Assembly (NCBI GenBank): GCA_020444075.1
Contig: JAHLLR010000042.1
Location: 1 to 44,775, forward strand
Source of the DNA: Deltaproteobacteria bacterium
Lineage (GTDB): Bacteria; Desulfobacterota; Desulfobacteria; Desulfobacterales; Desulfosarcinaceae
Length of the DNA stretch: 44,775 bases
Direction of reading: 5' to 3'
The notes under the pieces were generated by a model that was not told the DNA's origin, searched no databases, and worked only from the letters and a program-made list of their open reading frames with translations. The stretch's first letter is position 1; the number at the start of each line of letters is the position of its first letter. The position numbers and the translations under genes were made by a program. Shown piece by piece: positions 12,353-38,278 of the stretch.

Positions 12353-12865
12353 GTGGTGGATCCCCAGTCAAAACCTGCCTTTCAATCGACGGATGCGCCG
12401 GATTTCACGGCTGAAGAAATGTCGGCGGTGGATGCGATCATCGACCGCCACCGATCCACACCGGGCTCGCTGATACCCGTGCTCGAAGATGTTCAGGAAG
12501 CCCTGGGCTACCTTCCTCCAGCCATTCAACGCAAAATCGCGCTGAGCCTGGGGGTGCCTTTGGGCGAGGTCTATGGCGTGGTGACCTTCTACTCGTTTTT
12601 CACCATGGTGCCCCGGGGAAGGCACACCGTAAAATGCTGCCTGGGAACGGCCTGTTACGTGAGGGGGGGCAAAAAAATCCTTGAAAAACTCTCGACGACC
12701 CTGGGGATCGAACCCGGGACCACCACTGCCGACAGGCGTTTTTCCCTGGAAACCGTCCGCTGCCTGGGGGCCTGCGGTCTCGCGCCCGTCATTACCGCCG
12801 ATGCCGATACCTTCCGGCATGTCAAGCCGGCGAGGCTGATGGAACTACTCGACAAATATGATTAA
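12353..12865 (+). CDS. hydC: NuoE/HydC-like [2Fe-2S] subunit of a NAD-linked [NiFe] hydrogenase
   Basis: 170 residues from GTG after AGGAGGAAAAC. The N-terminal helical bundle and C-terminal thioredoxin-like [2Fe-2S] domain of NuoE/HoxE/HydC are present, with ligands Cys96 and Cys101 (CCLGTACYVRGG) and Cys137 and Cys141 (CLGACGLAP), the full C-x4-C and C-x3-C set. The segment GEVYGVVTFYSFF is characteristic. It passes electrons within the diaphorase part of the complex encoded by the next four genes. The gap to the next start is 38 bases. Confidence 0.93.
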   Translation: MVDPQSKPAFQSTDAPDFTAEEMSAVDAIIDRHRSTPGSLIPVLEDVQEALGYLPPAIQRKIALSLGVPLGEVYGVVTFYSFFTMVPRGRHTVKCCLGTACYVRGGKKILEKLSTTLGIEPGTTTADRRFSLETVRCLGACGLAPVITADADTFRHVKPARLMELLDKYD

Positions 12866-12903
12866 GTTGTCCGTTGCGGTTATCAACGCCTGGGGGAAGG
12901 ACC

Positions 12904-15900
12904 ATGCTTCAGCTCACCATAGACGATCTCCATCGGATTAAGGAAGCGGTCCTCAGGGCCTCGGTGCTGGAAGCGGGTAAAACAAGCACCCGCATTACCG
13001 TGCACATGGGCACCTGTGGAATCTCTTCCGGAGCGGACAGGGTTTACCGCATATTCAGTGAGGAACTGGCGGCAGCCGGGAGAAAAGACATCGCCATCAC
13101 CACTTCAGGCTGTGCGGGAATCTGCAACCGGGAACCGATCATCAGCGTGGAAAGGGTCGGGGAGGAGACCGTTAAATATGCCGCGGTTGATGAAAACAGG
13201 GCCAGGCTGATCTTCCGGAAACACATTCTCGAGGGACAGGTCGTCGCTGACTGGGTATTCGCCCGGGGATGGGAGCAGAAGGACGCTGACGGAGGCGAGT
13301 CCGCGTCGTCGGAGGCCCCGGTGGGCGATCACATCCGGCAGCTGCCTTTCTTCGGCCGGCAGGAACTGCGGGTGATGCGCAACCGCGGATTGATACGGGC
13401 CGAGAAGATTGACGAAACTATCGCCCGCGACGGCTACTTCGGTGCCGCCAGGGCGCTGCTTCACATGACGCCGAATGCGATAATCCGGGAAGTCAAGGAT
13501 TCTGGCATCCGCGGGAGGGGCGGCGCCGGGTTTCCCACCGGGATGAAATGGGATTTTGCCGCCCGGTCGGCAGGCGATGTCAAATACGTCCTGTGCAATG
13601 CCGATGAAGGCGACCCGGGGGCCTTCATGGATCGCTGCGTGCTGGAGTCGGACCCCCATGCCGTGCTGGAGGGAATGATTATCGCCGCCAGGGCCATCGG
13701 CGCGCATCAGGGGTATATCTACTGTCGGGCCGAGTATCCGCTGGCGGTGAAAATGCTGGCCCTGGCCATCGAGCAGGCCCGACAGTACGGCCTGCTCGGC
13801 GAGAATATCTTAGGGACCGGTTTTGGTTTTGACATCGACGTCTACCGCGGGGCCGGCGCATTCGTATGCGGCGAGGAGACTGCCCTGATGACCTCCATCG
13901 AGGGCAGGCGCGGGACCCCCCGACCCCGCCCGCCTTTTCCCGCCGTCCAGGGATTGTGGAAAAAACCGACCATCCTGAACAATGTGGAAACGCTGGCCAG
14001 CATCCCTCAGATCATCCTGAAGGGCGCGGCGTGGTACGCCGGTGTGGGCACCCTGCGCAGCAAGGGCACCAAGGTGTTTGCCCTGACCGGCGACGTCGCC
14101 AACGTCGGGCTGGTTGAAGTGCCCATGGGCATCCCCCTGGGGGATATTATCTTCGACATCGGCGGCGGCGTGCCCAGGGGCAAAACATTCAAAGCCGTCC
14201 AATTGGGGGGGCCGTCGGGCGGGTGCGTGCCGGCCGGCCACCTGAACACCCCGGTGGATTATGAATCGATCACCCGGCTGGGGGCCATTGTGGGCTCGGG
14301 CGGCATGATCGTGATGGATAACGACAAGTGCATGGTGGACGTCGCCCGGTTTTTCATGGAATTCTGCATGGAGGAGTCCTGTGGCAAGTGCACGCCCTGC
14401 CGGGTGGGAACCCGCAAAATGCTGGAGGTGCTGACACGCATCTGCCATGGGGAAGGCCGGGCAGGCGACATCGCGACCCTGGAACGATGGTCGGCGATCC
14501 TGCAGCAGTCGGCCCTGTGCGGTCTGGGCCAGACGGCGCCGAACCCGGTGCTGTCGACCCTGCGATATTTCCGGGATGAATATGAAGCCCACATTTACGA
14601 AAAGCGATGCCCGGCGGCGGTCTGCACCAGTCTGTTTAATGCACCCTGCCAACACGCCTGCCCCATCGGCATGGAGATCCCCGCCTATATTGCATTGGTC
14701 AGGACCGGAAGAGTGGACGATGCCTATCAGGTGCTGCTTCAGACCAATCCGTTTCCCAGTGTCTGCGGTCGGGTGTGCGACCACGTGTGCGAAACGAAAT
14801 GCCGACGGTCAACCGTCGATGAACCGCTCAGTATCAAGCATCTTAAACGCTACATCACCGATCATGCCTCCCGGCCGCCGGTCAAGCGGATGCCGGTTAC
14901 CCGCCGGGAAAAAGTGGCGATCGTCGGTGCCGGTCCCTCCGGCCTGACCGCCGCCCGGGATCTCATTTCCAGGGGATATGCGGTGACGGTTTTCGAGGGG
15001 CTGCCGGACCCGGGCGGCATGCTGCGATGGGGCATCCCGGCCTATCGCCTGCCGCGGGAGATCCTGGCCCGGGAGATCAGGGATATCACCGACATGGGGG
15101 TGGAACTGCGCTGCAACACCTGGGTGGGCCGGGACGTCGGTTGGGAAACGCTTAAAAAGAACGTCGATGGCATCTATCTGGCCATGGGTGCCCAGAAAAG
15201 TGTATCGATGGGTGTGCAGGGAGAAGAACTGGCCGGTGTCGGGGGGGCCGTGGAATTTCTCAGGGCTCACAACCTGGGGAAAAATCCCGAGGTGGGCAGG
15301 CGCGTGGCCGTCGTCGGCGGTGGAAATTCCGCCATCGATGCCTCCCGATGCGTGCTGCGACTGGGGGCCCAGACGGTCATGATCCTCTACCGGCGGCGGC
15401 GGTCCGATATGCCGGCCCAGAAGGAGGAGATTCGCGCGGCGGAAGCCGAAGGGATAACGATTCACGATCTCGTTGCCCCCGTCCGCCTGGAAGGCGGGAA
15501 CGGCCGCGTCGGGCGGATCGTCTGCCAACGGATGGTCCTGGGCGAGTTCGGGTCCGACGGTCGCCGGAAACCCATTGTACAGGCCGGTGCCGAGTTCGAC
15601 CTGGAGGTGGACCAGGTCATTGTGGCCATCGGCCAGCAACCGGATTTTTCGGCGGCTTTTCCCGCGCCCGATGTTCAATTGACCCCCCATGGCTTTATCG
15701 AAGCGAATCGGGACGGCCGTACGGCCGCGGCCATGATTTTTGCCGGCGGAGATGCCGTCCGGGGGCCAGATTCGGTCGTTCACGCCATTGCGGACGGCCA
15801 TCGGGCCGCGGCGGCCATGGACCGGACCATTCGGGAAAAAAATGGAGAACCGCCATACCGGCCGTCACCGGGAGAAGGCATCGACATCCCCATGACCGTT

Positions 15901-16059
15901 GCCGAAGAGATCCGGGAGGCACCGAGAGTCCGCATGCCGGAGAGCGATGTCAGCCAGAGATCCAGGACGTTTAAAGAGATTGAACTGGGCCTGTCCCCCC
16001 AGGATGCACAAGCGGAGGCCGACCGGTGCCTGCGCTGCGACCTAACGTCTTCCGGATAA
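12904..16059 (+). CDS. hydB: HydB-type NADH/FMN subunit fused to a GltD/NfnB-like FAD oxidoreductase
   Basis: 1051 residues, starting at the ATG after GGGGGAAGG. Modules in order: a thioredoxin-like [2Fe-2S] domain (1-120; Cys38, Cys70, Cys74); the NuoF core with FMN motif GRGGAGFPTGMKW (204-216) and NADH motif GAGAFVCGEETAL (317-329); an SLBB segment; the [4Fe-4S] N3-type site Cys493, 496, 499 and 539. Then, in place of the usual C-terminal 2x[4Fe-4S] ferredoxin domain, there is a complete GltD/NfnB-like module: a Cys-rich double cluster region (569-633), an FAD Rossmann motif VAIVGAGPSGLTAA (671-684), and a second dinucleotide site VAVVGGGNSAIDASR (801-815). The protein ends with the family's FAGGDAVRGP and CLRCD. 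It should oxidise or reduce NAD(P)H at two flavin sites in the cytoplasm. Confidence 0.93.
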   Translation: MLQLTIDDLHRIKEAVLRASVLEAGKTSTRITVHMGTCGISSGADRVYRIFSEELAAAGRKDIAITTSGCAGICNREPIISVERVGEETVKYAAVDENRARLIFRKHILEGQVVADWVFARGWEQKDADGGESASSEAPVGDHIRQLPFFGRQELRVMRNRGLIRAEKIDETIARDGYFGAARALLHMTPNAIIREVKDSGIRGRGGAGFPTGMKWDFAARSAGDVKYVLCNADEGDPGAFMDRCVLESDPHAVLEGMIIAARAIGAHQGYIYCRAEYPLAVKMLALAIEQARQYGLLGENILGTGFGFDIDVYRGAGAFVCGEETALMTSIEGRRGTPRPRPPFPAVQGLWKKPTILNNVETLASIPQIILKGAAWYAGVGTLRSKGTKVFALTGDVANVGLVEVPMGIPLGDIIFDIGGGVPRGKTFKAVQLGGPSGGCVPAGHLNTPVDYESITRLGAIVGSGGMIVMDNDKCMVDVARFFMEFCMEESCGKCTPCRVGTRKMLEVLTRICHGEGRAGDIATLERWSAILQQSALCGLGQTAPNPVLSTLRYFRDEYEAHIYEKRCPAAVCTSLFNAPCQHACPIGMEIPAYIALVRTGRVDDAYQVLLQTNPFPSVCGRVCDHVCETKCRRSTVDEPLSIKHLKRYITDHASRPPVKRMPVTRREKVAIVGAGPSGLTAARDLISRGYAVTVFEGLPDPGGMLRWGIPAYRLPREILAREIRDITDMGVELRCNTWVGRDVGWETLKKNVDGIYLAMGAQKSVSMGVQGEELAGVGGAVEFLRAHNLGKNPEVGRRVAVVGGGNSAIDASRCVLRLGAQTVMILYRRRRSDMPAQKEEIRAAEAEGITIHDLVAPVRLEGGNGRVGRIVCQRMVLGEFGSDGRRKPIVQAGAEFDLEVDQVIVAIGQQPDFSAAFPAPDVQLTPHGFIEANRDGRTAAAMIFAGGDAVRGPDSVVHAIADGHRAAAAMDRTIREKNGEPPYRPSPGEGIDIPMTVAEEIREAPRVRMPESDVSQRSRTFKEIELGLSPQDAQAEADRCLRCDLTSSG

Positions 16060-16072
16060 GGAGATGATCCCC

Positions 16073-18172
16073 ATGGAACGGGAGGCCATTCAAGTGAAAA
16101 TAACCATCGACGGGAAGGAAACCCTCGTCGGCGCCGGCCTCACTATCCTGGAAGCGGCCCGGCAGCAGGGCATCTCCATCCCCACGCTCTGCCACCATCC
16201 AGCCCTTTCCGAGCGCGGGGGGTGCCGCATGTGTGTCGTTGAGGTGGACGGCGCACCCCGGTTGGCCGCCAGTTGTGTCACGCCGGTCAGGGACGGCATG
16301 AACGTGGTCACCGTCAACGCACGCATCATCGAAACCCGCCGCACCATGCTGGAATTTCTGTTTGCCGAGAGAAATCACCATTGCATGTTCTGCCCCCGCA
16401 GCGGTGATTGTGAATTGCAGGCGCTTGCCTACGCCCTGCATATGGATCACCTGACGGTGCCCTCATCCTTTGATGCCTTTCCGGTGGACGCCACCAGCGA
16501 TTATATCGGACTCGACCATAACCGCTGTATCCTGTGCGGCCGTTGCGTGCGTGCCTGCGAGGAATTGTCCGGATGCCGCGTCCTCAACTTCCACAACCGG
16601 GGACCCGCCACCCTGATTGGTTTCGACCTGAACGAGACGCGCGAGCATTCCACCTGCACCAGTTGCGGCGCCTGTCTGCAAGTCTGTCCGACCGGCGCCC
16701 TGTACCATCGTCACCGGACCCATTACGCGGTCAAGGGACATTCCAGAAACTGGCAGACGATCCGGACGGTTTGTCCGCTGTGCGGGTTGCTGTGTCCTAC
16801 CGTCTCGACGGTCAGGGACAATGATTTGATAAAAATCGAAGGAATCGTCCCCGCCGGCGAGGACCGGCCCGACCGCGGCATCCTTTGCCATTTGGGAAGA
16901 TTTGAGGTGCTCAAGCCTTCCGGCCGTCGCCTTCTGCACCCCATGGCCAGGCAAACGGACGGATCCTGGGCTGAAACGAGCCGGGAGCGCGCCCTGGACC
17001 TTACCGTTGAAGGGTTGAACCGGGTGCGCGATGCCCATGGCGGCCATGCGGTGATGGGACTGGTTTCGGGCCTGTCCTCCAATGAGGAACTGGTCTGTTT
17101 CAGGGACCTGATGGAAAGCGCGTGGCAGGCCGGAGCCATTGCCACCGTGGAATCGTCCGAATTTCAAAATATATACGACCTCGGGCCGGATAACGGACAG
17201 CCCTTTACGGAAGCCTCCTGGAGAAAGATGGCCGAAGCCGATTTTATTCTTACGGTCGGCGCCGTTTCCCCTGACCGCCAGCCGGCGGTGGGCAACCTGA
17301 TCCGCAGGTGCTTGATCGAGCACCACCTGCGGTCCGCCGTTATCGGCCCGGATGATTTTCTGTATCCCCATGGAACCCATCATCTTCCGGTTAAAAATAA
17401 AGATGCGCTGTTGCTGGTCAGACTGATTTCAAACGAAGCCGCCAAAGGAATGAAAAAAACGACTGCTGCGGCCGGCCCGGGTGAATCCGTCAGGCCGATT
17501 GAAACGGTAAAGGCCACGGATATCGTTAAACGGTTGCATCTGGACGGTACGGCTCAGATCGTTTTGCATGAAATCATCCGGGATTTCGTGGATTCGGTCA
17601 ACCCGTTGATTCTCGTTGGCGAGAACGTCGCCGCCCAAGCGGATAAGACCGGCCTGGGAGCGCTGGTGAACCTAGCCCGGTTAAAGGGGCTTGATCATGA
17701 TCGGCGGTTGCGGCTGATTGTGCTGAAGCCGTGCGGCAACAGCATGGGTGCCTGGCGGCTGCTGAACCGGTCGGGCCGGAAGCATCGGGCCCGGGCCGGG
17801 ATAAAAGGCGGTCTGATCCTGCTTGAGCAGGACCCGTTTCAAGGCGCGGTTGATTTAAAAATCCCCGATGATCTGGGATTCCTGGCGGTCATCAGCCCCT
17901 GCTGGCCCGATAGTCTGGATGACCGTGCCCATGTGCTCATACCCAAATCCTCGTGGAGGGAAACCGACGGCACCTGGTCCGGCCTGGACGGCTGCGAAAC
18001 CGTGTTTCGCCGGAAAATGCTGGATGCCCCGGCAGGCATTCAGGCAGCCTGGCAAACCCTGGCGGATCTGGCCGTACGGGCGAATGTCACTTCAGGCTGC
18101 ACCACATGGGAAGCCTTGCGCCGGCAGGCCGAACACGAGATGCAGAAGGAGGCCATCGGTGAAAAAACCTAA
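16073..18172 (+). CDS. hydA: NuoG/HydA-like iron-sulfur subunit of the hydrogenase complex
   Basis: 699 residues, starting at the second of two in-frame ATGs (16073), which has the ribosome binding site AAGGAG nine bases away; the ATG at 16064 touches that site. Domains: plant-type [2Fe-2S] (Cys40, 51, 54, 68), a His/Cys [4Fe-4S] site (HHCMFCPRSGDCELQ, about 102-116), two ferredoxin-type clusters (CILCGRCVRAC, then CTSCGACLQVC with its following CP), and the molybdopterin-oxidoreductase-type cluster (CPLCGLLC). After that comes a degenerate molybdopterin-binding-like domain to the C terminus, which in NuoG-type subunits is structural. It links the HydB flavin sites to the hydrogenase module. 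Its 3' end overlaps hydS by 14 bases. Confidence 0.92.
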   Translation: MEREAIQVKITIDGKETLVGAGLTILEAARQQGISIPTLCHHPALSERGGCRMCVVEVDGAPRLAASCVTPVRDGMNVVTVNARIIETRRTMLEFLFAERNHHCMFCPRSGDCELQALAYALHMDHLTVPSSFDAFPVDATSDYIGLDHNRCILCGRCVRACEELSGCRVLNFHNRGPATLIGFDLNETREHSTCTSCGACLQVCPTGALYHRHRTHYAVKGHSRNWQTIRTVCPLCGLLCPTVSTVRDNDLIKIEGIVPAGEDRPDRGILCHLGRFEVLKPSGRRLLHPMARQTDGSWAETSRERALDLTVEGLNRVRDAHGGHAVMGLVSGLSSNEELVCFRDLMESAWQAGAIATVESSEFQNIYDLGPDNGQPFTEASWRKMAEADFILTVGAVSPDRQPAVGNLIRRCLIEHHLRSAVIGPDDFLYPHGTHHLPVKNKDALLLVRLISNEAAKGMKKTTAAAGPGESVRPIETVKATDIVKRLHLDGTAQIVLHEIIRDFVDSVNPLILVGENVAAQADKTGLGALVNLARLKGLDHDRRLRLIVLKPCGNSMGAWRLLNRSGRKHRARAGIKGGLILLEQDPFQGAVDLKIPDDLGFLAVISPCWPDSLDDRAHVLIPKSSWRETDGTWSGLDGCETVFRRKMLDAPAGIQAAWQTLADLAVRANVTSGCTTWEALRRQAEHEMQKEAIGEKT

Positions 18173-18701
18173 ACTGGCCACGGTCTGGTGCGAGGCCTGT
18201 GCCGGCTGCCACATGTCGTTTCTGGATCTGGACGAAGGGCTGGTCGATATTCTCTCACAGGTGGAATTGACGGTCTCTCCACTGACGGATGTCAAGGATT
18301 TCGCCTTTCCCCACGTCGACGTAGGAATCGTGGAAGGCGGCGTGGGCAACCAGGAAAATCGGGAAGTGATCGAACGGCTTCGCAGGCAGTGCCGTTTGCT
18401 CATCGCCTGGGGAGACTGCGCCGTTTTTGGCGGCATCCACACCCTGCGCAACGGGCTGTCCACGGGCGAGGTGCTGCGCTGCAGCTATGTGGAAACAGCC
18501 GGCACCGTAAACGGGGTCATTCCCTGCCATGAAGACATTCCCCCGCTTCTGGACAAGGTGCTGCCGGTCAACGCGGTGGTGGCGGTCGACGGGTATGTGC
18601 CCGGCTGCCCGCCGGCGCCGGAAGTTCTGGCCTATTGTCTCAAGGAACTGCTGGCGGGCAGGCTGCCTGTGTTGCCCGAGGAAATGATCCATTTCGATTA
18701 G
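18159..18701 (+). CDS. hydS: [NiFe] hydrogenase small subunit (HydS/HoxY-like)
   Basis: 180 residues from a GTG start preceded by AAGGAGG inside the 3' end of hydA; the open frame continues upstream, but that part is a shadow of hydA. Proximal [4Fe-4S] ligands are visible in WCEACAGCHMSF, AWGDCAVFGG, the Cys of VIPCHE, and GYVPGCPPAPE. The short form without medial and distal cluster domains is typical of group 3c/3d and HydS-type cytoplasmic enzymes. There is no Tat signal. The stop codon sits inside the left arm of a large inverted repeat that separates this gene from hydL. Confidence 0.95.
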   Translation: MKKPKLATVWCEACAGCHMSFLDLDEGLVDILSQVELTVSPLTDVKDFAFPHVDVGIVEGGVGNQENREVIERLRRQCRLLIAWGDCAVFGGIHTLRNGLSTGEVLRCSYVETAGTVNGVIPCHEDIPPLLDKVLPVNAVVAVDGYVPGCPPAPEVLAYCLKELLAGRLPVLPEEMIHFD

Positions 18702-18847
18702 GAGTGGTTTAAAAATCTCCCCTCAGGCCCAACCTCCATGTTGGGGAGGTGGATTCAATACTCGACATACCCGATGTATGCCTCCGTTTGAATCCACCTC
18801 CCCGCCTTGATCTTGAACCTGATTGAAGGTTTTTAAACCACTCCTAA
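18698..18847. repeat. Large nested inverted repeat between hydS and hydL
   Basis: The outer arms are a perfect 18-base inverted repeat: TTAGGAGTGGTTTAAAAA at 18698-18715 and its complement at 18830-18847. Inside is a second perfect 16-base pair: GGGGAGGTGGATTCAA at 18743-18758 and its complement at 18788-18803. In the loop CATAC and GTATG can also pair. The left outer arm contains the hydS stop codon, and the right outer arm runs into the AAGGAGG that serves hydL. It contains no gene. It could be a small mobile palindromic element or an RNA structure that sets HydS/HydL expression. Confidence 0.9.
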
Positions 18848-18857
18848 GGAGGGCTTC

Positions 18858-20288
18858 ATGGCCCGGCCATCTAAAATTACCATCAATCCCCTCAGCCGCA
18901 TCGAAGGCCACGGCAAGATCACGATTCATCTGGATGAAAACGGCGATGTGAGCGAGTGCCGGTTTCACGTTACCCAGTTTCGTGGCTACGAGCGGTTCTG
19001 CCAGGGCAGGCCTTTCGAGGAGATGCCCGTGATCACCCAGCGCATCTGCGGCATCTGCCCGGTCAGCCACCAGCTGGCCTCGGCCAAGGCCTGCGATGCG
19101 ATCCTGGGTGTGGATATTCCGCCCACCGCCAGGCGATTGCGGGAACTGCTGCATATGGGACAGTTCATTCAGTCCCATGCGCTGCATTTTTTTCATCTCG
19201 CCAGCCCCGACCTGCTGCTCGGCTGGGATGCCGATCCGGGCAGGCGCAATGTGGTGGGGCTGATGGCGGCGTTTCCGGATCTGGCCATGAAAGGCATTCG
19301 GCTCAGAAAATTCGGGCAGGAAATCATCAAGGCCCTGGGGGGCAAGAAAATCCATCCGGCCTTTGCCGTGCCCGGCGGGGTCATGAATCCGCTGAAGGAT
19401 GATGATCGCGGCAACCTGTTGCGCGGTTTCTCCGACGCCTATGCGTCAACCCATGCCGCCCTGGGTGTCGTCAAAAAATGGCTCGGAACCCATAGGGATG
19501 AGGTGAAACAATTTGCCAATTTTTCATCCAGTTACGCCGGACTGGTAGATGAAAAGGGATGTCCGGCATTGTACGACGGCGTCATGCGCATGAGGAGCCA
19601 TGACGGCGGCATCCTGGCCGAATTCGACCCGGCGCAATACCTGGAGTTCATCGCCGAACATGTGGAACCCTGGTCCTATCTTAAATTTCCGGTTTTCAAA
19701 CCCCTGGGATATCCGGCCGGCTGCTACCGGGTGGGACCGCTGGGACGGCTGAATGTCGTCGATGCCATGGGAACCCCCCAGGCACAGGAGGCGTTCGACG
19801 ACTATCGTCAAAGGACTGCAAACGGGCTCAAGGGCGGATCCCTGATTTTCCATTACGCGCGGCTCATCGAACTGCTTTACTGCCTGGAGAAGGCTGAAAC
19901 CCTTCTGGAAGACGACCGGATCTGCGGCCGGGATATCCGCATTTCATCCAACCCGGCCAACCGGCAAGGGGTGGGGGCCATCGAAGCCCCCAGAGGTACT
20001 TTGATCCATCATTACCGGGTGGATCAATACGGAATCCTTGAAGCCGTCAATCTCATCGTGGCCACCGGGCACAACAATCTGGCCATGAACCGGGCGATCG
20101 ACCTCGTGGCCAGAGCCTATATCCGCGGCGGTGAGGTTAAAGAAGGTCTGCTAAACCGCATCGAAGGCGCTATCCGATGCTACGATCCCTGTCTTTCCTG
20201 TTCCACCCATGCCGTCGGGCAAATGCCGCTTGCCGTCGAGATTTTCAGCAGTACCGGCGCACGGGTGAAAAAACTCGGGAGCACGTAA
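18858..20288 (+). CDS. hydL: [NiFe] hydrogenase large subunit (HydL/HoxH-like)
   Basis: 476 residues after AAGGAGGGCTTC. The NiFe active-site ligands are Cys64 and Cys67 in [10 protein letters not shown] and Cys445 and Cys448 in DPCLSCSTH. After His451 there is a 25-residue C-terminal extension (AVGQMPL...), the peptide removed by a specific endopeptidase during maturation; such a protease is encoded next. The [11 protein letters not shown] start and cytoplasmic partners fit a group 3 bidirectional enzyme. With HydC, HydB, HydA and HydS it forms the five-subunit layout known for the electron-bifurcating [NiFe] hydrogenase HydABCSL. Confidence 0.96.
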
Positions 20289-20291
20289 ACC

Positions 20292-20843
20292 ATGATCCTG
20301 CCGGAAACAACATCATCTGAATATTGGATCATCGGCTATGGCAACGCCCAGCGCCGGGATGACGGCATCGGCCCGTATATCGTCAACCGGTTGCGGCCCC
20401 TCTTGGCGAGCCGCGGAGATGTTCACCTGCGGGTTTCACACCAGCTGGAACCTGATTGGATTGAACTGCTGAAAAACGCGACTACCATTTTGTTTGTGGA
20501 CGCCGCCATCCGCAGGGGAGGGGAGGGGCGTCGCTGGACGGCCATTCAACCGGAATTCAAAACCCTGCCCTGCCTGGGCCATCAGGTTACCCCGGCCTTC
20601 ATCCTGGGTTGGCTGCAGTGCTTGTACCGCCGTTGCCCGACCGCATGGCTGGTCACCATTGAGGGAAACGATTTCGGCTTCGGCAGCGGACTGTCCCCCG
20701 TGGCCCGGAAAAGTGCTGAACAGGTCATCGGCGAAATCACCGCGTTGGTGTTGACGCAAGGGGGGGGAACCCTACCGGAACTCCCGGACAAACCGGGAAA
20801 GGTAATTAATAACGGACAAAACCCTATCAGGAGGCCGACATGA
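20292..20843 (+). CDS. Hydrogenase maturation endopeptidase (HycI/HoxW family)
   Basis: 183 residues. The family's nickel-probing motif is present as IIGYGNAQRRDDGIGP (Asp23/Asp24 region), followed by LFVDAAIRRG and LGHQVTPAFIL, the positions of the other metal-binding Asp and His. It follows hydL by three bases and should cleave the 25-residue C-terminal peptide of HydL once Ni is inserted. The second large subunit in the window has no such peptide and should not need it. The stop overlaps the start of the receiver gene (ATGA). Confidence 0.92.
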   Translation: MILPETTSSEYWIIGYGNAQRRDDGIGPYIVNRLRPLLASRGDVHLRVSHQLEPDWIELLKNATTILFVDAAIRRGGEGRRWTAIQPEFKTLPCLGHQVTPAFILGWLQCLYRRCPTAWLVTIEGNDFGFGSGLSPVARKSAEQVIGEITALVLTQGGGTLPELPDKPGKVINNGQNPIRRPT

Positions 20844-21253
20844 GTGCCGGAAAAGATATACTCGTCATCGACGACGACCGGGACCTGGTGGATACCCTTC
20901 GGATCGTGCTGGAAAGCAAAGCCTATGCGGTCAGGACGGCCTATGACGGTCAGGACGGGTTTCGCCGCATCGAAGAAAAAATACCCGATCTCATCATCCT
21001 GGATGTCATGATGGCTACGGTTACCGAGGGATTCGATCTGGCGTGCATACTCAACAACCGGCCCGAATACCGGGATATACCCATTATCATGGTCACCTCG
21101 TTTCCAAAGGTCATGGCCGAAACAGGTCCAGACACGTTTCAACACATCCTGGGAGAGGACTGGCCGGTATCGATCTTTATTGAAAAACCGGTTGATCCGG
21201 AGAAATTGCTGACCGCCATCGAGGATATCTGGAAGGAAAAAGACGAGACATAA
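20840..21253 (+). CDS. Receiver-only response regulator in the hydrogenase operon
   Basis: 137 residues. Single receiver domain with acidic cluster at 11-13, phospho-acceptor Asp55 (LIILDVMMAT), Thr/Ser switch in IIMVTSFP and Lys in FIEKPVDPEKL. No output domain. Translation is coupled to the protease upstream (4-base overlap) and the histidine kinase downstream (1-base overlap, TAATG), so the three genes are expressed together with the hydrogenase. It probably signals by protein-protein contact. Confidence 0.92.
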   Translation: MSAGKDILVIDDDRDLVDTLRIVLESKAYAVRTAYDGQDGFRRIEEKIPDLIILDVMMATVTEGFDLACILNNRPEYRDIPIIMVTSFPKVMAETGPDTFQHILGEDWPVSIFIEKPVDPEKLLTAIEDIWKEKDET

Positions 21254-23151
21254 TGACGGACGGCCTCCACATGCAATTGGGCGATGAACTGGTCAAGGAA
21301 CAGCTGTTTTTCCGCAAGGAACTCAGGGAACGGATCCGCTGGTTGATCCGTCTGAGGTGGATTGCCGCCGGTTCATCGCTGGTCGCAAGCTGGCTGGTCT
21401 ATTATCAATGGCGGACGCTGCCGGTTGTCACCGTCGATCTCATCCTCCTTTTTGTCTTGCTTTACAATCTCGGTTTTCATTTCATCTGGCGGCGGCTGCA
21501 AACGGGCAACCCCCGGGAAGTAAAGCCCTTGACCATTTTTACCCACGCACAGATCATTTGCGACTTCTCAGCCCTTTATCCGTTAATTTATTTTACCGGA
21601 AATTTACACAGCCCGCTGCTCATATTTTTAATTTTCCATGTCATCCTGTCAGGGATGTTGCTCTCCCCGCTGAGCTGTTTTTTATATTGCTTCTCGGTCC
21701 CGGCTGTCCTGGGCGGGCTGGTGACATTGCAGGCGTTGGAAATTCTCCCTATCCAGCCGGCCATGTTCCACGGACCGTCGTGGGTTTATCGTTTGTATGT
21801 TCCGGTGGATGCTCCGGACATGGTGCCTTTCTTTCTTCTCTTTGTTGCCGCCCTGTTCATCACCGCTTTTCTGGTCACCTCCCTCAAGTTGAGTCTGAGG
21901 GTCAAAGGCAGAGCACTGCTTCAGGTCTCTAAAGCACTGGATGCCGGTAATGTTAAATTGAGGGCCCTGTACAAGATGGTCACGGAGATGGGCGGCTGCG
22001 TGTCGCTGCAGCCGTTGATGGATGTGGCCACCCGAAACGCGGCCCGGATAATGGGGGTCGACACCTGCTCCATCAAACTGCTGGACGATCAGCGGGAAAA
22101 CCTGATCTTTGCTTCCACCTTCGGTCTCGGCGAGGAGTATAAGAAAAACAGTCGGGGGGTCAAGGTTGCCGGAAACCCCATTGCCCAGAAAATCATGGAT
22201 GGGACGCTGAGCGTCATCGGTAAAATAGGTGAAAAGGATTATTCACAGTATCCGGAAGATATCCGCAAAGAAGGAATTGCTTCCATGATCTGCCTGCCCC
22301 TTTCCGTGGGCAAGACCGTTTCGGGGATATTTTGCGTATACAGTGCCGAGCCCGGCACTTTTTCGGAGGATGACGTCAAATTTTTTTCGTTGATGACCGA
22401 CCTGACCGCCCTGTCCATGGAAAACCTGAAAAGGGACCTCGATAAATCATGGTTCCTGCAGAAAGCGGCCCACCAGCTTCGCTCACCGTTGAATACCGTG
22501 TTGAGCATGCTCAACCTGATAAAAAACCGTTATCTCGGTCCCGTGACGCCGAAACAGGCAACTACGCTCGACCGCAGTGTGAAACGCCTCCAGATTCTGG
22601 GAGACGTGGTTGCCGACCTGCTCAATCTTGAAATTAAACGGATGGACCTGCAAAAGGTTGTCTTGCATCCGGTCACGGCGGCCAGTGTATTGAACCCCCT
22701 GAGGGAGCCATACCAGGTGCTGGCGGCCGAAAAGCATGTGGACGTCGCCTTCGATATCGACAAATCACTGCCTCCTGTTCTGGCCGATGAGAAGCTTGTC
22801 GACGACCTGTTCACCAACCTGATTGCCAATGCGGTGAAATATACGCCGGTGGGAGGGGCGGTGCGTGTGACGTTAAGCCGGGAAAACAGCAAGCATGTCC
22901 GGTTTCAAGTCCGTGACACCGGTATCGGTATCACGCCGGATGATCTTCCCTGCATTTTTACGGAATTTTTCAGATCCGCCAACGCCAGACAGTTTGAGGA
23001 AGAAGGGACGGGACTGGGACTGGTGGTCGTAAAGGAAATTATGGATCGTCTGAAAGGCACCATATCCGTGAAAAGTACGCTGGGGGAGGGCACCTGTTTT
23101 ACCTGCCGTCTGCCGATAGCCGACCGGCCTTCAGCCAATGAGGATAACTGA
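21253..23151 (+). CDS. Membrane-bound GAF sensor histidine kinase in the hydrogenase operon
   Basis: 632 residues. The N-terminal 220 residues hold about six hydrophobic membrane segments. Then follow a GAF domain (about 245-385, with CSIKLLDDQRENLIF and GIASMICLPLSVG), a HisKA domain with His407 in AAHQLRSPL, and a HATPase_c domain with NLIANAVKY, DTGIGITPDD and GTGLGLVVVKE. The neighbouring receiver protein is the obvious partner. Being the penultimate gene of the hydrogenase unit suggests that it reports redox or H2-related state, but no ligand can be read. Confidence 0.93.
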   Translation: MTDGLHMQLGDELVKEQLFFRKELRERIRWLIRLRWIAAGSSLVASWLVYYQWRTLPVVTVDLILLFVLLYNLGFHFIWRRLQTGNPREVKPLTIFTHAQIICDFSALYPLIYFTGNLHSPLLIFLIFHVILSGMLLSPLSCFLYCFSVPAVLGGLVTLQALEILPIQPAMFHGPSWVYRLYVPVDAPDMVPFFLLFVAALFITAFLVTSLKLSLRVKGRALLQVSKALDAGNVKLRALYKMVTEMGGCVSLQPLMDVATRNAARIMGVDTCSIKLLDDQRENLIFASTFGLGEEYKKNSRGVKVAGNPIAQKIMDGTLSVIGKIGEKDYSQYPEDIRKEGIASMICLPLSVGKTVSGIFCVYSAEPGTFSEDDVKFFSLMTDLTALSMENLKRDLDKSWFLQKAAHQLRSPLNTVLSMLNLIKNRYLGPVTPKQATTLDRSVKRLQILGDVVADLLNLEIKRMDLQKVVLHPVTAASVLNPLREPYQVLAAEKHVDVAFDIDKSLPPVLADEKLVDDLFTNLIANAVKYTPVGGAVRVTLSRENSKHVRFQVRDTGIGITPDDLPCIFTEFFRSANARQFEEEGTGLGLVVVKEIMDRLKGTISVKSTLGEGTCFTCRLPIADRPSANEDN

Positions 23152-27136: not shown

Positions 27137-28444
27137 TCAGTGTGTGGCGCAGGTCAGGCAGGGGTCGAAGAGACGGATGCAGCGTCCGATAGCCTTTTGT
27201 CCGGATTCGGATAGCCCGCCCGTTTCCATGTGCTGTTCGGCTAAATCCTTGATGATGAGGTTGATCAACGGGTTGTTGAACTGGGTGGCCACCAGGAGCT
27301 TCAGGCGCTCGATCCGGCCGCGGTTAATGGTATAGCTGTGGATCAGGACGCCCCGGGGTGCCTCCACGACACCGATGCCTTTCCCGCTTTCATCGGGATT
27401 CACGGGGGTGGTATCGATTGCTGACAGGTCGATGCCCTGCAGCAGTTCCTCTATCCGGGTTGCCGCCCAGTATATTTCGGCAAGGCGCATGACATCGATA
27501 TATTCGATGTGAATTCCCCTCGAAGACCTGGCCCGTTGGATAATCTCAAAATCCTCCAATTCCCCCATGTTGATGGCGGAGTGTTCCGAAAAGGCGCGTG
27601 AGAGGGGGCCGACGTGAAAAATGCCATCCGGGAAGCCCAGCCGGGACAGGTAGGGGAATTTCGCAAACGACCAGTCGACGCGCATTTCCGACACATGATC
27701 CTCGAAGGCGGAAACGTCGAAGCGATCATCACGTGCACCATCGGAGGCATAGACCTTGAGATGGCCCTGAGAGCCTGAATTCTCATCATAACACAAAAAG
27801 TTGACCCTGTTGTGCCGGGGGAAGGCGATCCTGCGGTCAGGCAGTGTCCGCTGATCCAGGCTGCCGATTATCTGCCGGGTCTGTTCGGCGACGTTTCCGG
27901 CAATTGAGACGATCTCATCGAGGTCGTTTATGGAGGGCCTGACCGCCATCCCGCCTACGCACATGGCAACGGGGTGGACGGATCGCCTGCCCAGCATTTC
28001 CACGATCCGGCTGCCGGCTTTCTGGATCGAGAAGGCCGTTTCAGCGATCTGAGGATGGTGCTGAATCAGACCAAAAATGCCTTCACTGGTTCCGAGAATG
28101 TCCGGCTGGGTAAGAAAGAAGTAACTGAGTGCATGGCTTGCGATCCATTCGCCGTAAACGGCTGCCTGGCGAAGCTTCCTGACCGGGTCGGGCACATCGA
28201 TTTCCAGCGCGTCCTCGATGGCCCTTACACTTGCCGCCTGATGCGCCATGCAGCACAGGCCGCAGATTCGGGAGATGATGTGGGGAACAAAGGCGACCTC
28301 CTTTCCCTGGCAGAGTTTTTCGAAGCCGCGGAAATCCTCCACCATGAATCTGGCGTACTGCACCCGGCCCTGATCGATTTCAACATGGATGGTGGCATTG
28401 CCTTCGATCCGGGTGGCCTTTTTGAGCAGTATTTGCTGTCTCAC
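27137..28444 (-). CDS. [NiFe] hydrogenase large subunit lacking the C-terminal maturation peptide
   Basis: 435 residues from a GTG that overlaps the stop of the small subunit gene (GTGA). Active-site ligands are Cys61 and Cys64 in RICGLCCMAH and Cys429 and Cys432 in DPCLTCATH. The protein ends exactly at that final His435, followed by TGA. Most catalytic large subunits carry an extension after this His that a protease must remove; its natural absence is known for H2-sensing regulatory hydrogenases (HupV/HoxC) and some group 4 enzymes. The overall sequence (TRIEGNATIHVEIDQG, GVVEAPRGVLIHSY) resembles cytoplasmic group 3 enzymes. Its partner small subunit is fused to two cyclic-nucleotide-binding domains. 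Confidence 0.93.
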   Translation of the reverse strand: MRQQILLKKATRIEGNATIHVEIDQGRVQYARFMVEDFRGFEKLCQGKEVAFVPHIISRICGLCCMAHQAASVRAIEDALEIDVPDPVRKLRQAAVYGEWIASHALSYFFLTQPDILGTSEGIFGLIQHHPQIAETAFSIQKAGSRIVEMLGRRSVHPVAMCVGGMAVRPSINDLDEIVSIAGNVAEQTRQIIGSLDQRTLPDRRIAFPRHNRVNFLCYDENSGSQGHLKVYASDGARDDRFDVSAFEDHVSEMRVDWSFAKFPYLSRLGFPDGIFHVGPLSRAFSEHSAINMGELEDFEIIQRARSSRGIHIEYIDVMRLAEIYWAATRIEELLQGIDLSAIDTTPVNPDESGKGIGVVEAPRGVLIHSYTINRGRIERLKLLVATQFNNPLINLIIKDLAEQHMETGGLSESGQKAIGRCIRLFDPCLTCATH

Positions 28445-30291
28445 CTGACCCTCAACAGTTTATCTGTGGCGTCGCTGTCCATATTGAACATGAAATGGCC
28501 GCCCTGTTTGATCCGCCTGATCGTTTCAGTAATGTCGCCGTCGTCTTTGCCATACCGTTGTCCGATTCCCCGTACGGCGATTTCCTCGAGGGTCTCACCG
28601 TTTTTAAGGCTCAGGATGGTTTTTTTCGAAGGCCCCCGACATCCCCAGCATGGTGCGCCGCCTTTGGGACAAACCGACTCGTAGCCGCCTCGGGTCATGA
28701 ATCCCAGGCAAACCCGTCCCAATGAATTGAAGCAGATCTTGTCGGCAGGCAGGTGAGAGGTTGCACCTTTTTCAAAGTAATCTGCGGCCGGTTTGCGACC
28801 GCAGCGTGAACACACGACGGGTAATGTTTTGGATGTCTGGCCGCCGGTTAATTCCAGGATCAGGTCATACAGCAATGTCGGGTCCGGCGGACATCCGGGA
28901 AGATAGTAATCGACCTTTTCGAAACTGTCTAATGCAAAAGCCCTGCGCTGGAGATCGACTCCGTTGATCTGTTGGACATTGCATCGATCGATACCGGAAG
29001 GGCCGGAAAAATAGTAGGAAAAGGCATCGTCGGTGGATCCATAGCTTTCCTCGATCACCGTTTCCACTTCGAAGCGGTTGGCCAGGCCGGGAATACCGGC
29101 AAATGCCGCGCAGGTTCCCCATGCCACCAGATAACGGCATTTACGGCGCGCTTCATTCAACCTGATTTCATCTTCCCTCAGACGGACGACACCGTCGACC
29201 AATATGATATCCGACTCCGGCAAGGCTTCCCGGTCCATCAGCATTTGACAATAGTCGATGGACGATTTGGAGAGGATTTTAGAAAGAACGGTGTAATCGA
29301 GAAGGACGGCCGAACAGCCGGCACATGTCGAAAGAGAGACGATGGAAAGCGACATGCGATCTCGTTTGACCAGCTTCGGAACCCACGGTGAGTGCTGCTG
29401 CACCCGAAACGTTCCGGGGTTGGAAAGCATGCTTTCAAGGCAGGAGAGCCTTAGAATCAGCGTTTTGATAATCGCGATGGCCAGGTCCGGCTGGTTTTCG
29501 AGGCACTCTACAAACTGCTCTTTATCGATGACAATCAGGTCCGTGGCTTCCAGCGCCGTGACCGTGGCGCTTCTGGGCATGTCGGCGATCAGGGCCATTT
29601 CCCCGAAAAAATCTCCCGGACCGATAGTGTCGATCAGCCGGGTAACATGGGCTTCGTACTTGCTGACGCCCACACGGCCGCTCAATATCAGGTACATGCA
29701 GTCGCCGGTTTCACCTTCATGAAAAATAGTCTCTCCGGGCGCGGCATGGTGCCGGCAGCGGTTCGTGCCGATGTTTGCCTCGGCCAGAAGCAGATCATTC
29801 GTAAGGTCCCTGCTGCCGGGCAACGCATCTGGCGCTTCGACCGGTGAGAAGCCCCGGTCACCTGCCAATAGCTTTTCGCTATAGGCGGCGACGGCATTCC
29901 TGAACTCCTCGTTTTCCAAAAGTTCCTGCCGGTAGCGCCGGTGTGCGCGTTGAATTCGCTGAATCAGTTTCCTCAGTAGATGCAGCGATACGTCGGGGTC
30001 CCGCTTCAATCGGTCAACCAACAGGGCTTTGGTCAACGGGATCAGGCGGGTGCGGCTGATCGCGGTGATTGTAGCGGATCTGCCGCCGGTTTGCAGCAGT
30101 GCCATTTCCCCGAAAAAATCACCTTTTTCGAGAATTGCGATCACGTTTTCGCTGCCGTTTTTATCCTGCGAAACTTCGACCGCCCCGGACTGAATGATAT
30201 ACATGACATCCCCAGTTTCGCCCTGGCGGAATACGACTTCTCCCCTGAGGTAGGTTGAACCGAAAAGTTCGGGACCATATTTTCTGTCCAC
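28441..30291 (-). CDS. Two cyclic-nucleotide-binding domains fused to a [NiFe] hydrogenase small subunit
   Basis: 616 residues from a GTG with AAGGA nine bases upstream; a TTG at 30321 would add ten residues. cNBD1 (about 10-110) has the phosphate-binding cassette GDFFGEMALLQTGGRSAT, and cNBD2 (about 180-285) has GDFFGEMALIADMPRSATVT. Both keep the Glu and the Arg-Ser that hold the cyclic phosphate in CRP. A linker leads to a group 3-like small subunit from about 312, with proximal cluster residues Cys323/Cys326 (CAGC), AWGTCAAF and LPGCPPDP. Further cluster ligands follow in CSRCGRKP, RVCLGFMTRGGYESVCP and GAPCWGCRGP. There is no helix-turn-helix after either cNBD, so this is not a CRP-type regulator, and no Tat signal, so it is cytoplasmic. 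It should bind cNMP and form a heterodimer with the overlapping large subunit. Confidence 0.92.
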   Translation of the reverse strand: MDRKYGPELFGSTYLRGEVVFRQGETGDVMYIIQSGAVEVSQDKNGSENVIAILEKGDFFGEMALLQTGGRSATITAISRTRLIPLTKALLVDRLKRDPDVSLHLLRKLIQRIQRAHRRYRQELLENEEFRNAVAAYSEKLLAGDRGFSPVEAPDALPGSRDLTNDLLLAEANIGTNRCRHHAAPGETIFHEGETGDCMYLILSGRVGVSKYEAHVTRLIDTIGPGDFFGEMALIADMPRSATVTALEATDLIVIDKEQFVECLENQPDLAIAIIKTLILRLSCLESMLSNPGTFRVQQHSPWVPKLVKRDRMSLSIVSLSTCAGCSAVLLDYTVLSKILSKSSIDYCQMLMDREALPESDIILVDGVVRLREDEIRLNEARRKCRYLVAWGTCAAFAGIPGLANRFEVETVIEESYGSTDDAFSYYFSGPSGIDRCNVQQINGVDLQRRAFALDSFEKVDYYLPGCPPDPTLLYDLILELTGGQTSKTLPVVCSRCGRKPAADYFEKGATSHLPADKICFNSLGRVCLGFMTRGGYESVCPKGGAPCWGCRGPSKKTILSLKNGETLEEIAVRGIGQRYGKDDGDITETIRRIKQGGHFMFNMDSDATDKLLRVR

Positions 30292-31161
30292 GTCGATCCG
30301 TCCTTCGCGTCTGGTGGTCAAGAGGCCATCCGTACGTGCGCCTTGGTGGAATCCGGAAATACCTGAATGGTTATAAATTGTCTCGACAAATGCCGATCAG
30401 CCCATACAAGCCTGGCAGTGATCGAGGCAACTGGACCGATCGGAGTTGCCGATTACATGGCGTTTCGCTATTGGGTTTGTATCTGGAATGAAGTTGTCGC
30501 AATGTAAGAACACCGAACCCGACAATCGCGCATCATACCATCCATGGCTGACGTTGCAAGCCTCTTCTTTGATTCGTAGACGACGGCCCCCAGGTGAATT
30601 GGCCAGAACCAAAAAGAGTCGAATCGCGGGACCCGCAATCTCCGACGGCCCGTCGAACTGCTCAGAATCCTATTCCTCGAAATAGGAGGACGCCTTAAAC
30701 GCCGCAAATCTTGGTTCTTTATTGTGTCTGGTGCCCTTTCAGGATGAGCGTGTCGAACAATAAAACCCGTAGAATGCCTAAGGGTTTAATCAGTGCATTT
30801 TTATTGTTTACTATTTCTGTTGATTCGATAATATTCATATTGGGATGAAATTCCCATTTATTTAATATCTGTATTTTTTTGCAAAATCCTCTCGCCTGAT
30901 GGCAGATATATTTTTTCATACTGAAGTTTCCTTTTGAATCTGGGTCCGCATTACAAACGGTTCAGGGTGATGGGTTATATTGTGCCCAGTATATCACCAA
31001 CTATTTAAAATTTATATATTTTTAATGCTGCAGAGGTGAAGTTCTCTCCTTTTCCGATGCCGGCATCTGTTTGTTCCAGGGTCGTTAACCTATATGGGCC
31101 CTTGAAGTCAGACCCGTCAACCTCGGTGTTTGATTTTATTGGGCAACAGAGGGGATCTAAT
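30292..31161. other. Divergent regulatory region between cNMP-hydrogenase and FecR-barrel genes
   Basis: 870 bases with no confident gene. A perfect 12-base palindrome-like site TTGTC-TC-GACAA lies at 30378-30389, about 90 bases upstream of the hydrogenase small subunit start, and could be an operator. From about 30720 to 31040 the sequence is markedly AT-rich, unlike its surroundings, and contains one small possible gene. Promoters for both directions are expected here but could not be fixed by eye. Confidence 0.5.
30719..30919 (-). CDS. Possible small protein, unknown function
   Basis: 66 residues, basic, starting MKKYICHQARGFCKK. The ATG has AAGGAA eight bases upstream, the only reason to list it. 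It lies in an AT-rich stretch that differs from the surrounding genes. No family is recognised, and it could be a chance open frame or the remnant of a transferred gene. Confidence 0.25.
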   Translation of the reverse strand: MKKYICHQARGFCKKIQILNKWEFHPNMNIIESTEIVNNKNALIKPLGILRVLLFDTLILKGHQTQ

Positions 31162-36013: not shown

Positions 36014-38278
36014 CTATTTGGTTTTGGGCTCAAACACACATTCCCAATCCTCCGGCGGCGGATCATCCTTATAGACCATGCAACGCTGGAGCATGGTCTT
36101 GGATGGCCCGTCGTCGGGGCGCAAGGCAAGGGCACGCTTGAAGTGGGCGATCGCCTGGGGCCAGTGCTGGCGGCAGTACTCGTCATAGCCGGCGGCATAG
36201 GCCTCCAGGGCACCCAGGTGTTCCGGTGACAAGGTCTCGCCGGCACGGGCGATCAGTTCGTAGACCCGCACGCACTGCTCCTTGCCCACCACCCGCACCA
36301 GGTCCATATCCCGCACAATGAAATCTTCCTTGACCAGTTCGTAGGTATTCTCACCGATGATGATGCTGGTTTTGTACTGCTTATTCAGGCCCTCCAGGCG
36401 CGAGCCCAGGTTGACCTGGTCCCCCAGGACGCCATAGGCGAAACGGTAGCGAGACCCCAGATTGCCGATGAGCATGGGCCCGCTGTTGATCCCGGTGCGT
36501 GCGTGAAGAATCGGCCGTCCAGAATCGGCCCATTCCTTGGACAATTTATGGCGTGCGTCACGCATGGCCAAGGCTGCCTCGCAGGCCCGCTTGGCGTGGT
36601 CGGGCTGCTCGATGGGTGCCCCGAAAAAGGCCATGACCTCGTCGCCCACGTACTCCTTGAGCGTGCCGCGCTGTTTGAAGATTTCCTCCGACACGCGGTT
36701 GAAGTATTCGCTGAGGATCTTGATCATCTCCTTCGGCCCGTAGCGCTCCGAGTAACTCGTGAAGCGCTCCAGGTCGGAAAAGAGCACGGTCAGCACCTTT
36801 TCCTCGCCCCCCAGGGTCAGTTGTTCGGGGTCCTTGAGCATCTCTTCGATGACCATGGGGGCGACGTACTGCCGGAAGGTGCCCTTGATCCGTCTGCGGT
36901 CTTTTTCCACCGTGGCGTAGCGGAAAACGGTGACGAAGGTGTAGCTGATCGCCAGGGAGGCCAGGGGATAGACCATGTTGAGCCAGAGGTTGAACTGGAT
37001 GAAAAGCCATCGAGTGAAAAGAATATGCAGGGTGAAAATGCCAAGCGCAATAATAAGGCCGGCCATGGCTTTCACCCGGGGCAGGAAGACGCCGGGCAGC
37101 AGGCCGATGGAAATGATGGCGATCAGGTCGAAGATCTCGGACCAGCGGGGCTTGTTGATGAACCGTCCGGTGAGCATATTGTCGATGACCGTCGCATGGA
37201 TCTCCACCCCCGGGTAAACCGGGCTGAAGGGCGTCGACCTCAGGTCATGGGTGCCGACGGCGGTGGCCCCCACCAGAACGATCCGGTCCTTGAACGTCCC
37301 GGCCGGTGTCTCGCCTTTTAAAATGTCGGTGATGGAATAGTGGGGGAAGACCCCGGCAGGGCCGAGGTAGTTGATCCGAAGATGCCCATTTTCGTCGGTG
37401 GGAATAAATTGGGGGCCCATCTGGATGCCTTTTACACCATAGTCGGGGACGTTCACGATCAGCTGGGGCCGATCCAGGTACTGCCAGACGCACTGCACCG
37501 TCAGGTGGGGAAAGAGGTCTTCGCCGCACTTGATCATCAGGGGAACGTTGCGCACCACGCCGTCCAGGTCGCTGGCCACGGTGAAAAACCCTGATCCGTC
37601 GGCGGCATCGGAGAGTATTTTCAGGTTGGCTTCCGGTGCATAGGCGGTGATGAACGGAAGCCGGGAGGCTTCCGGTTCCTGTTGGAGAATCATGGGATAC
37701 TTGGATTTGTCGATCAGTGCCAGCTGACGGTCGATTTCTTTCTTTCCGATGTCGTAATTCAATTCCGACGGGCTCATGTGGAAGAAATAGCCCAGCACCG
37801 TGGTCGAATGGGCCTGGCGGATTGCATCCGCAAGGATCCGGTCGTTGATGTCCTTCCGCACCTGCCCGGACGTTAGATCGACCAGGCCTTCGTTGGTCTC
37901 TGCCAGGCGGTCGAGAGCCTCTTGAAACTCCTGGGAAACGGTCGGGTCGCTATTTTCTTCCGGCTCCAGGAATCCGATGTCAAAGCCGATCACCTTGGCG
38001 CCGTCCTCGGAAAGCCGGTCCACCAAAAGGGCGATCTTGGAACGCGGCCACGGCCAGCGGCCCTCCTGGTCGAGGCTCTTTTCATCGATCATGGCCAGCG
38101 CTACCACCGGTGAGGGTTGCAGACGGCCCCGTTGGAGAAAACGCATATCGTAGAGTTTTAATTCAAAGAGGTCCAGAATGGGAACATCGATCTGGAACAG
38201 GAAAACGGTCAAGGCAATTGAAAGCAGGGTGACGACGGCAACGCCCTTCAGATATTTCGGTATTTTAGGCGATTTCAT
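36014..38278 (-). CDS. CHASE2 class III nucleotide cyclase with guanylate-cyclase-like purine residues
   Basis: 754 residues. One N-terminal membrane segment (about 11-31), an extracytoplasmic CHASE2 domain (about 33-345), three membrane segments (about 380-455), then a class III cyclase domain (about 490-680) and a C-terminal TPR-like tail. Metal-binding Asp502 (LFSDLERFT) and Asp546 (EYVGDEV) and the transition-state pair Asn623 and Arg627 (NLGSR) are all kept, so it should be active. The position that is Lys in adenylate cyclases (K-x-x-GD) is Glu542, as in guanylate cyclases, and the second purine position (usually Asp/Thr) is Gly616. The product may therefore be cGMP. The start abuts the stop of the HD gene upstream, so both are one transcript. 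Confidence 0.93.
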   Translation of the reverse strand: MKSPKIPKYLKGVAVVTLLSIALTVFLFQIDVPILDLFELKLYDMRFLQRGRLQPSPVVALAMIDEKSLDQEGRWPWPRSKIALLVDRLSEDGAKVIGFDIGFLEPEENSDPTVSQEFQEALDRLAETNEGLVDLTSGQVRKDINDRILADAIRQAHSTTVLGYFFHMSPSELNYDIGKKEIDRQLALIDKSKYPMILQQEPEASRLPFITAYAPEANLKILSDAADGSGFFTVASDLDGVVRNVPLMIKCGEDLFPHLTVQCVWQYLDRPQLIVNVPDYGVKGIQMGPQFIPTDENGHLRINYLGPAGVFPHYSITDILKGETPAGTFKDRIVLVGATAVGTHDLRSTPFSPVYPGVEIHATVIDNMLTGRFINKPRWSEIFDLIAIISIGLLPGVFLPRVKAMAGLIIALGIFTLHILFTRWLFIQFNLWLNMVYPLASLAISYTFVTVFRYATVEKDRRRIKGTFRQYVAPMVIEEMLKDPEQLTLGGEEKVLTVLFSDLERFTSYSERYGPKEMIKILSEYFNRVSEEIFKQRGTLKEYVGDEVMAFFGAPIEQPDHAKRACEAALAMRDARHKLSKEWADSGRPILHARTGINSGPMLIGNLGSRYRFAYGVLGDQVNLGSRLEGLNKQYKTSIIIGENTYELVKEDFIVRDMDLVRVVGKEQCVRVYELIARAGETLSPEHLGALEAYAAGYDEYCRQHWPQAIAHFKRALALRPDDGPSKTMLQRCMVYKDDPPPEDWECVFEPKTK

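Follow-up and report, generated by a model that had tools for sequence, protein, structure and literature searches.

Cyclic-nucleotide-binding domains (cNBDs) act as input modules in the characterised proteins known to us, such as PKA-R, PKG, CRP, SthK and Pat. The nearest case that we found of such a domain in a hydrogenase complex is HoxI, which belongs to the soluble hydrogenase of C. necator and is described as a separate cNBD protein that binds to the diaphorase and serves as a site of activation by NADPH (PMC3702609; the papers cited by PMC number are represented here by excerpts). Genes for cNBD proteins are also present in operons of group 3b hydrogenases (PMC12319191, PMC13332983). 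Another kind of regulation is seen in the regulatory hydrogenase (RH, HoxBC) of group 2b, which is bound to a histidine kinase and carries a Gln where other [NiFe] hydrogenases have a conserved His (PMC5665086). Here we describe a gene of a Desulfosarcinaceae bacterium in which two cNBDs are joined in frame to a [NiFe] hydrogenase small subunit; it lies within positions 1 to 44,775 of contig JAHLLR010000042.1, a stretch that is called the window below. With its large-subunit partner it forms a conserved two-gene unit that is present in two phyla. At about even odds (roughly 0.5), we read the pair as a two-subunit, probably soluble, diverged [NiFe] hydrogenase of group-3 descent that would be under direct cyclic-nucleotide control.

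No cNBD-[NiFe] fusion was found in the literature searched, which comprised open-licence papers and no preprints. None is described in the excerpts of PMC12319191, PMC13332983, PMC8346489, PMC10547907 and PMC10787695, and the table rows seen of HydDB (PMC5037454) list groups linked to kinases, cyclases and phosphatases but no group with a cNBD. A preliminary description of this DNA knew of no account of cyclic-nucleotide control of a hydrogenase by direct fusion. Precedents for a cyclic-nucleotide domain in a hydrogenase system do exist, since HoxI and the cNBD genes of group 3b operons place cNBDs in such systems; it is the direct tandem fusion that was not found in the papers searched.

The fusion protein and its large-subunit partner

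The fusion is encoded on the minus strand by a single open frame (30291..28441) of 616 residues. Its GTG start aligns with the ATG of a 71%-identical relative from the same genus (G005), and the frame stays open 5' of the GTG as far as a TTG at 30321. When the surrounding 6 kb were base-shuffled 200 times, the longest open frame reached 270 codons, as compared with the 616 residues of the fusion. The preliminary description had placed the gene correctly at 28441-30291, though it gave no strand, and its order of cNBD, cNBD and small subunit in one frame is borne out by the open frame and the Pfam matches. An assembly or frameshift error near residue 300 is excluded, since three further genomes carry this pair of genes. 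With the window, the fusion is thus known from four genomes that represent three lineages, and one of these genomes is assembled as a single contig of 7.3 Mb.

Both cNBDs belong to PF00027, which matches the fusion in two stretches (7.2e-50, 167.4 bits against a cut-off of 27.5). The first, cNBD-A, covers about residues 9-126 (29914..30267, minus strand) with the cassette GDFFGEMALLQTGGRSAT, and the second, cNBD-B, covers about residues 180-300 (29392..29754, minus strand) with the cassette GDFFGEMALIADMPRSAT. These window sequences agree with the intact phosphate cassettes noted earlier; the cassette Glu and Arg are retained in both domains of all four fusions, and the PDB matches include PKA-R, PKG and SthK. 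In an alternative reading, the cNBDs would bind another ligand, for example NADPH as reported for HoxI, or would only dimerise, and the fusion would be a built-in analogue of HoxI. Like the fusion, HoxI is a cNBD protein of a group-3 hydrogenase system, but it has its own gene and a single cNBD, whereas two are fused in frame here. The HoxI cassette, GELGFIDQTPHSLS, has a His at the position of the Arg that, together with the Glu, both cassettes keep in every fusion; we consider this explanation improbable.

The [NiFe] small-subunit domain occupies about residues 310-555 (28627..29364, minus strand) and is supported by the Oxidored_q6 match, the VhuG model and alignment with MvhG. The Oxidored_q6 match (5.3e-21) lies above its curated cut-off. 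VhuG is the best curated model (135.6 bits, under its cut-off of 450), and the nearest PDB chains are F420-non-reducing/Mvh small subunits (9sfi, 5odc and 9sw2). Twelve cysteines of MvhG, which we take to be cluster ligands, have 11 counterparts in the window protein. At the twelfth position, residue 537, the window has Tyr, G005 has His and the other two fusions have Cys, giving 11/12 in the window and G005 and 12/12 in the fusions of G161 (same order, other family) and a Chloroflexota genome. The earlier statement that all clusters are present is thus right for 11 of the 12 cysteines and fails at residue 537. The domain is followed by a C-terminal tail of 61 residues (28444..28626, minus strand), which ends in R-x-R in all four fusions.

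The large-subunit gene (27137..28444, minus strand; 435 residues; PF00374, 3.3e-29) overlaps the stop of the fusion by 4 bp (GTGA), and an overlapping large-subunit gene accompanies the fusion in all four loci. All four partners carry the CxxC cysteines C61, C64, C429 and C432, presumably the Ni/Fe ligands, and are identical at E14, H68, D115, P363, R364 and D427, which we take to be catalytic positions. VhuA (204.9 bits, cut-off 800) and ShyA (197.9 bits) are about equally near as curated models, and the closest PDB chains are 7t2r_D, the large subunit of A. mobile NiFe-HydABCSL and the best match (220 bits), and MvhA. In a 73-row large-subunit tree, with three rows typed from PDB alignments and a support mark of 95/80, the four partners group together with 100/100 support, within the group-3 part, and the stem that leads to their clade measures 2.34 changes per column. 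The clade joins six other unclassified rows at 92/86, under the mark.

Among the closest known systems are the Mvh/Vhu hydrogenases of group 3c (MvhAG; 5odc, 9sw2, 9sfi): VhuG is the best curated match for the small subunit, and the cysteine pattern is the same but for one residue. The fusion unit differs from them by its tandem N-terminal cNBDs, by the lack of a C-terminal peptide on the large subunit and by its separate, long-stemmed clade. Filing under group 3c is ruled out by the scores far under the VhuG and VhuA cut-offs (135.6/450 and 204.9/800 bits), by the 11/12 cysteines and by the fact that no MvhD/FlpD or HdrA gene was seen among the flanking genes, most of which were examined with Pfam and the others by eye.

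The large subunit carries traits that resemble those of sensors. It terminates at DPCLTCATH, without a C-terminal maturation peptide; all four partners end in this way (DPC..CATH), and a truncated fifth relative (G180) likewise stops at its last His. Every other closed large-subunit frame in which the C-terminal motif is seen (29 of 29) extends 23-30 residues further. This comparison took in 74 rows; among the 69 that do not belong to the clade, 40 were left aside because the locus end cut them or the motif was missing. The large chain of A. mobile HydABCSL runs 25 residues beyond its last His (475 versus 450). In addition, the L1 His is replaced by Asn: all four partners read RIEGN, and R[ILV]EGH is read in all 68 motif-bearing rows among the 69 outside the clade. 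HoxC of the RH, itself one of two hydrogenase subunits, likewise ends at its last His (DPCMVCTVH) and has also lost the L1 His, in its case to Asp (RVEGD).

These features, together with the long stem, raise the possibility of a two-input sensor in which the hydrogenase part would read H2, the cNBDs would read a cyclic nucleoside monophosphate (cNMP), and the heterodimer, instead of supplying metabolism with electrons, would signal to a partner such as a cyclase, a phosphatase or a GAF protein. Such a sensor is the main rival to our reading; we consider it less likely, if far from negligible. It would constitute a second, independent origin of H2-sensing [NiFe] hydrogenases, in group 3 and not in group 2. 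According to a 2025 review, the C-terminal peptide is absent in the sensors of groups 2b and 2d, but also in groups 4c and 4e (PMC12134894); because of the latter two, its absence is no proof of sensing. The fusion partners, moreover, keep His68 where HoxC has Gln (CGICSVSQ), which we would equate with the Gln reported for the RH (PMC5665086), and the fusion has no output domain. In the tree HoxC pairs with HoxG (100/100) and the two stand away from the remaining 71 rows, and filing of the unit under group 2b is ruled out by His68, by this tree position and by the lack of an adjoining histidine kinase.

Occurrence, descent and selection

The two-gene unit is rare and patchy, and it is present in two phyla. 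Apart from the window, we found the fusion in G005, a single-contig 7.3-Mb genome of the same genus, in G161 (37% identical) and in an Anaerolineae metagenome-assembled genome of the Chloroflexota (CAIJPN010000158.1; 42% identical). Its own genome included, it was seen in 2/60 relatives, 2/30 genomes of the family, 2/242 of the order and 1/395 of the phylum, as well as in 1/4 genomes of the family of G161 and in 1/396 genomes of the Chloroflexota class, namely that metagenome-assembled genome itself. All such counts are lower bounds from overlapping sets of genomes, since most of the large searches scored no more than the top 3-7 candidates in each genome. A large-subunit search of 385 genomes of the order recovered at least three complete members and the truncated relative (G180:C100, 364-1137), which lacks its 5' half, close to the start of the contig, and has no C-terminal peptide. 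A contig scan by patterns inside the cNBD gave one fusion among the 80 loci listed. The large subunit has matches in 106 records of a plasmid collection; none reaches 60% identity, and the ten listed do not exceed 31%.

In the large-subunit tree, G161 and the Chloroflexota copy group together (99/94), apart from the window and G005, although G161 belongs to the same order as the latter two. This arrangement points to horizontal transfer of the unit.

Such a scattered distribution would also be expected of a chance fusion or a decaying gene, that is, of a diverged and inactive hydrogenase relic joined to cNBDs, and the very long stem, the loss of one cluster cysteine in two of the four fusions and the truncated relative in G180 could be accounted for in the same way. 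However, the ratio of nonsynonymous to synonymous substitution (dN/dS) is low across all domains. In comparison with G005 it is 0.135 for cNBD-A, 0.176 for cNBD-B, 0.129 for the small subunit and 0.106 for the large subunit, while the linker that separates the two cNBDs gives 0.294 and the C-terminal tail 0.219; the figures are approximate because dS is about 1 or more. The cNBDs thus appear to be about as constrained as the hydrogenase part, with purifying selection acting on every domain. As the catalytic residues are also retained in all four copies and an identical two-gene unit is shared by two phyla, decay is a very improbable explanation.

Neighbouring genes and the case for cyclic-nucleotide control

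A source of the putative ligand may be encoded nearby. In the window, a CHASE2 class III nucleotide cyclase (PF05226 and PF00211) is encoded at 36014..38278 on the minus strand, 5981 bp from the operon, and in G005 a CHASE2-cyclase lies 6 kb away, with the gene order, as judged by eye, and the orientation relative to the fusion as in the window. Given the number of class III cyclase domains in each genome, random placement would bring one this close with a chance of 0.047 and 0.041, respectively; these two distances are not independent, because of shared ancestry. Closer still are the class III domains of a response-regulator cyclase in G161, on the same strand and 923 bp downstream of the operon (chance 0.010), and of an FHA-cyclase in G005, convergent and 483 bp downstream (chance 0.012). 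The association of cyclases with the fusion is suggestive, not proof.

Signalling genes of some kind are in fact found among the neighbours in all four loci: the response-regulator cyclase together with a GAF-SpoIIE protein in G161, the FHA-cyclase in G005, a GAF protein in the window, and a double receiver-domain frame in the Chloroflexota genome, cut near the end of the contig, which stops about 0.8 kb upstream of the fusion. No histidine kinase gene directly adjoins any of the four operons; the closest one of the window (21253..23151) is about 4 kb off, on the opposite strand and after a HydABCSL-like operon. Nor were genes for FlpD/MvhD, HdrA, a diaphorase or a cytochrome seen beside the four operons, where most flanking genes were examined with Pfam and the rest by eye. 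A sensor would gain from the signalling neighbours and from the lack of an adjoining electron partner; the missing histidine kinase counts against it.

Cyclic-nucleotide control of a hydrogenase is nevertheless the reading that we favour over an H2 sensor, because cNBDs are input modules in the characterised proteins known to us. The preliminary description had offered both options, the second as an H2 sensor in which cNMP binding would depend on redox state, and this second option gains from the resemblance of the large subunit to sensors, a point that the description did not use. In our proposal, the class III cyclase would make cAMP (or cGMP), which would bind to the two cNBDs that precede the small-subunit domain. 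The C-helix would move in response, and this movement could be transmitted by way of the short stretch ahead of the first [4Fe-4S] motif, where it might open or close the electron exit of the small subunit or its partner-docking face, or else alter the oligomer, and H2 turnover would thereby be raised or lowered. We infer cNMP binding, H2 activity, the direction and route of their coupling and the identity of the electron partner. Control and sensing would share one step, the binding of a cNMP to the fusion with a change in the hydrogenase part, and would differ in the output, which would be electrons in the former case and a protein contact in the latter.

Several observations weigh against control of a working hydrogenase. 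That no electron-partner gene was seen among the flanking genes, most examined with Pfam and the others by eye, is odd for a metabolic enzyme, and one cluster cysteine is missing from the window and G005 fusions. In the Chloroflexota copy the cassette of cNBD-B is irregular (FGEWAL...RYSSAT), with Glu and Arg still kept, and the contig that bears this fusion has no PF00211 match at all, up to its end about 0.8 kb upstream. Matches to PF00211 are numerous in the four genomes (17, 19, 22 and 6). A structure prediction from two sequences, the window fusion and one relative, reached a mean pLDDT (predicted local distance difference test) of only 34.5, because the sequences were too few. On the whole, the direct fusion, the intact cassettes, the conservation in two phyla, the catalytic residues and the nearby cyclase genes lend partial support to the interpretation given in the preliminary description, whose view of the precedents is not supported as it stands.

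Several other genes of the window deserve mention. A gene for a FecR-TPR protein (31036-34518, plus strand) separates the fusion from the CHASE2 cyclase, in an order that G005 has as well; the C-terminal part of the protein looks outer-membrane-like by eye. Directly upstream of the cyclase gene, an HD-domain protein (38279-39169, minus strand) scores 379 bits with the NCBIfam Npun_R2479 family (cut-off 400) and has no Pfam match. A further cNBD is part of a single protein (39479-42736, minus strand) that combines an MMPL-family transporter with a C-terminal cNBD and a GGDEF domain; cNBD matches within frames of about 1070-1180 residues recur in relatives. The window also contains a second set of hydrogenase genes (12353-23151, plus strand), for HoxE/NuoE, NuoF-like and NuoG/HoxU-like proteins, [NiFe] small and large subunits and a maturation protease, followed by the GAF histidine kinase. 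Its operon (12353..20843) looks like an electron-bifurcating HydABCSL operon, and in the tree the large subunit that it encodes falls beside A. mobile HydL (7t2r_D). In A. mobile, where HydABC are the bifurcating partners (PMC9304861), the HydABCSL operon also has hisK and hydD.

Signalling modules on [NiFe] small subunits

The cNBDs are not the only signalling domains on such small subunits. Among 234 genomes examined from the order, at least two encode a Ser/Thr protein kinase fused to a [NiFe] small subunit, in three proteins altogether (G043:C123:38015-39871, G053:C134:725-2608 and G053:C122:7322-9160). The signalling domain is again N-terminal, with the kinase replacing the cNBDs. The G043 fusion has an FlpD-type gene directly upstream, and its large subunit carries a C-terminal peptide of 30 residues. 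At least two kinds of signalling module are thus joined to the N-terminus of such small subunits, and since both occur at the same end, the small-subunit N-terminus accepts modules of this sort. A 508-codon small-subunit frame in G535 was considered as a further signalling fusion and rejected, as only Oxidored_q6 was found in it. Another domain combination, noted at L143 (13381-14514, minus strand), joins a ParA-type ATPase with a glycogen-binding domain of the AMPK1_CBM/CBM48 type.

Taken together with the kinase fusions, the unit described here may represent both a second-messenger-gated hydrogenase and a coincidence detector of H2 and cNMP. It would then belong to a regulatory [NiFe] lineage inside group 3, independent of RH/HupUV, in which the allosteric input is covalent and Mvh-type small subunits have repeatedly acquired N-terminal signalling modules. 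We advance this wider view tentatively, as well short of an even chance. If the cNMP input is indeed covalent, the turnover or the sensing of H2 would answer directly to cAMP or cGMP, and H2 metabolism would be linked to the cyclase sets of these bacteria, with their 17, 19, 22 and 6 PF00211 matches. With two subunits and no need for C-terminal cleavage, the unit would also offer a compact system for allosteric control of a [NiFe] site.

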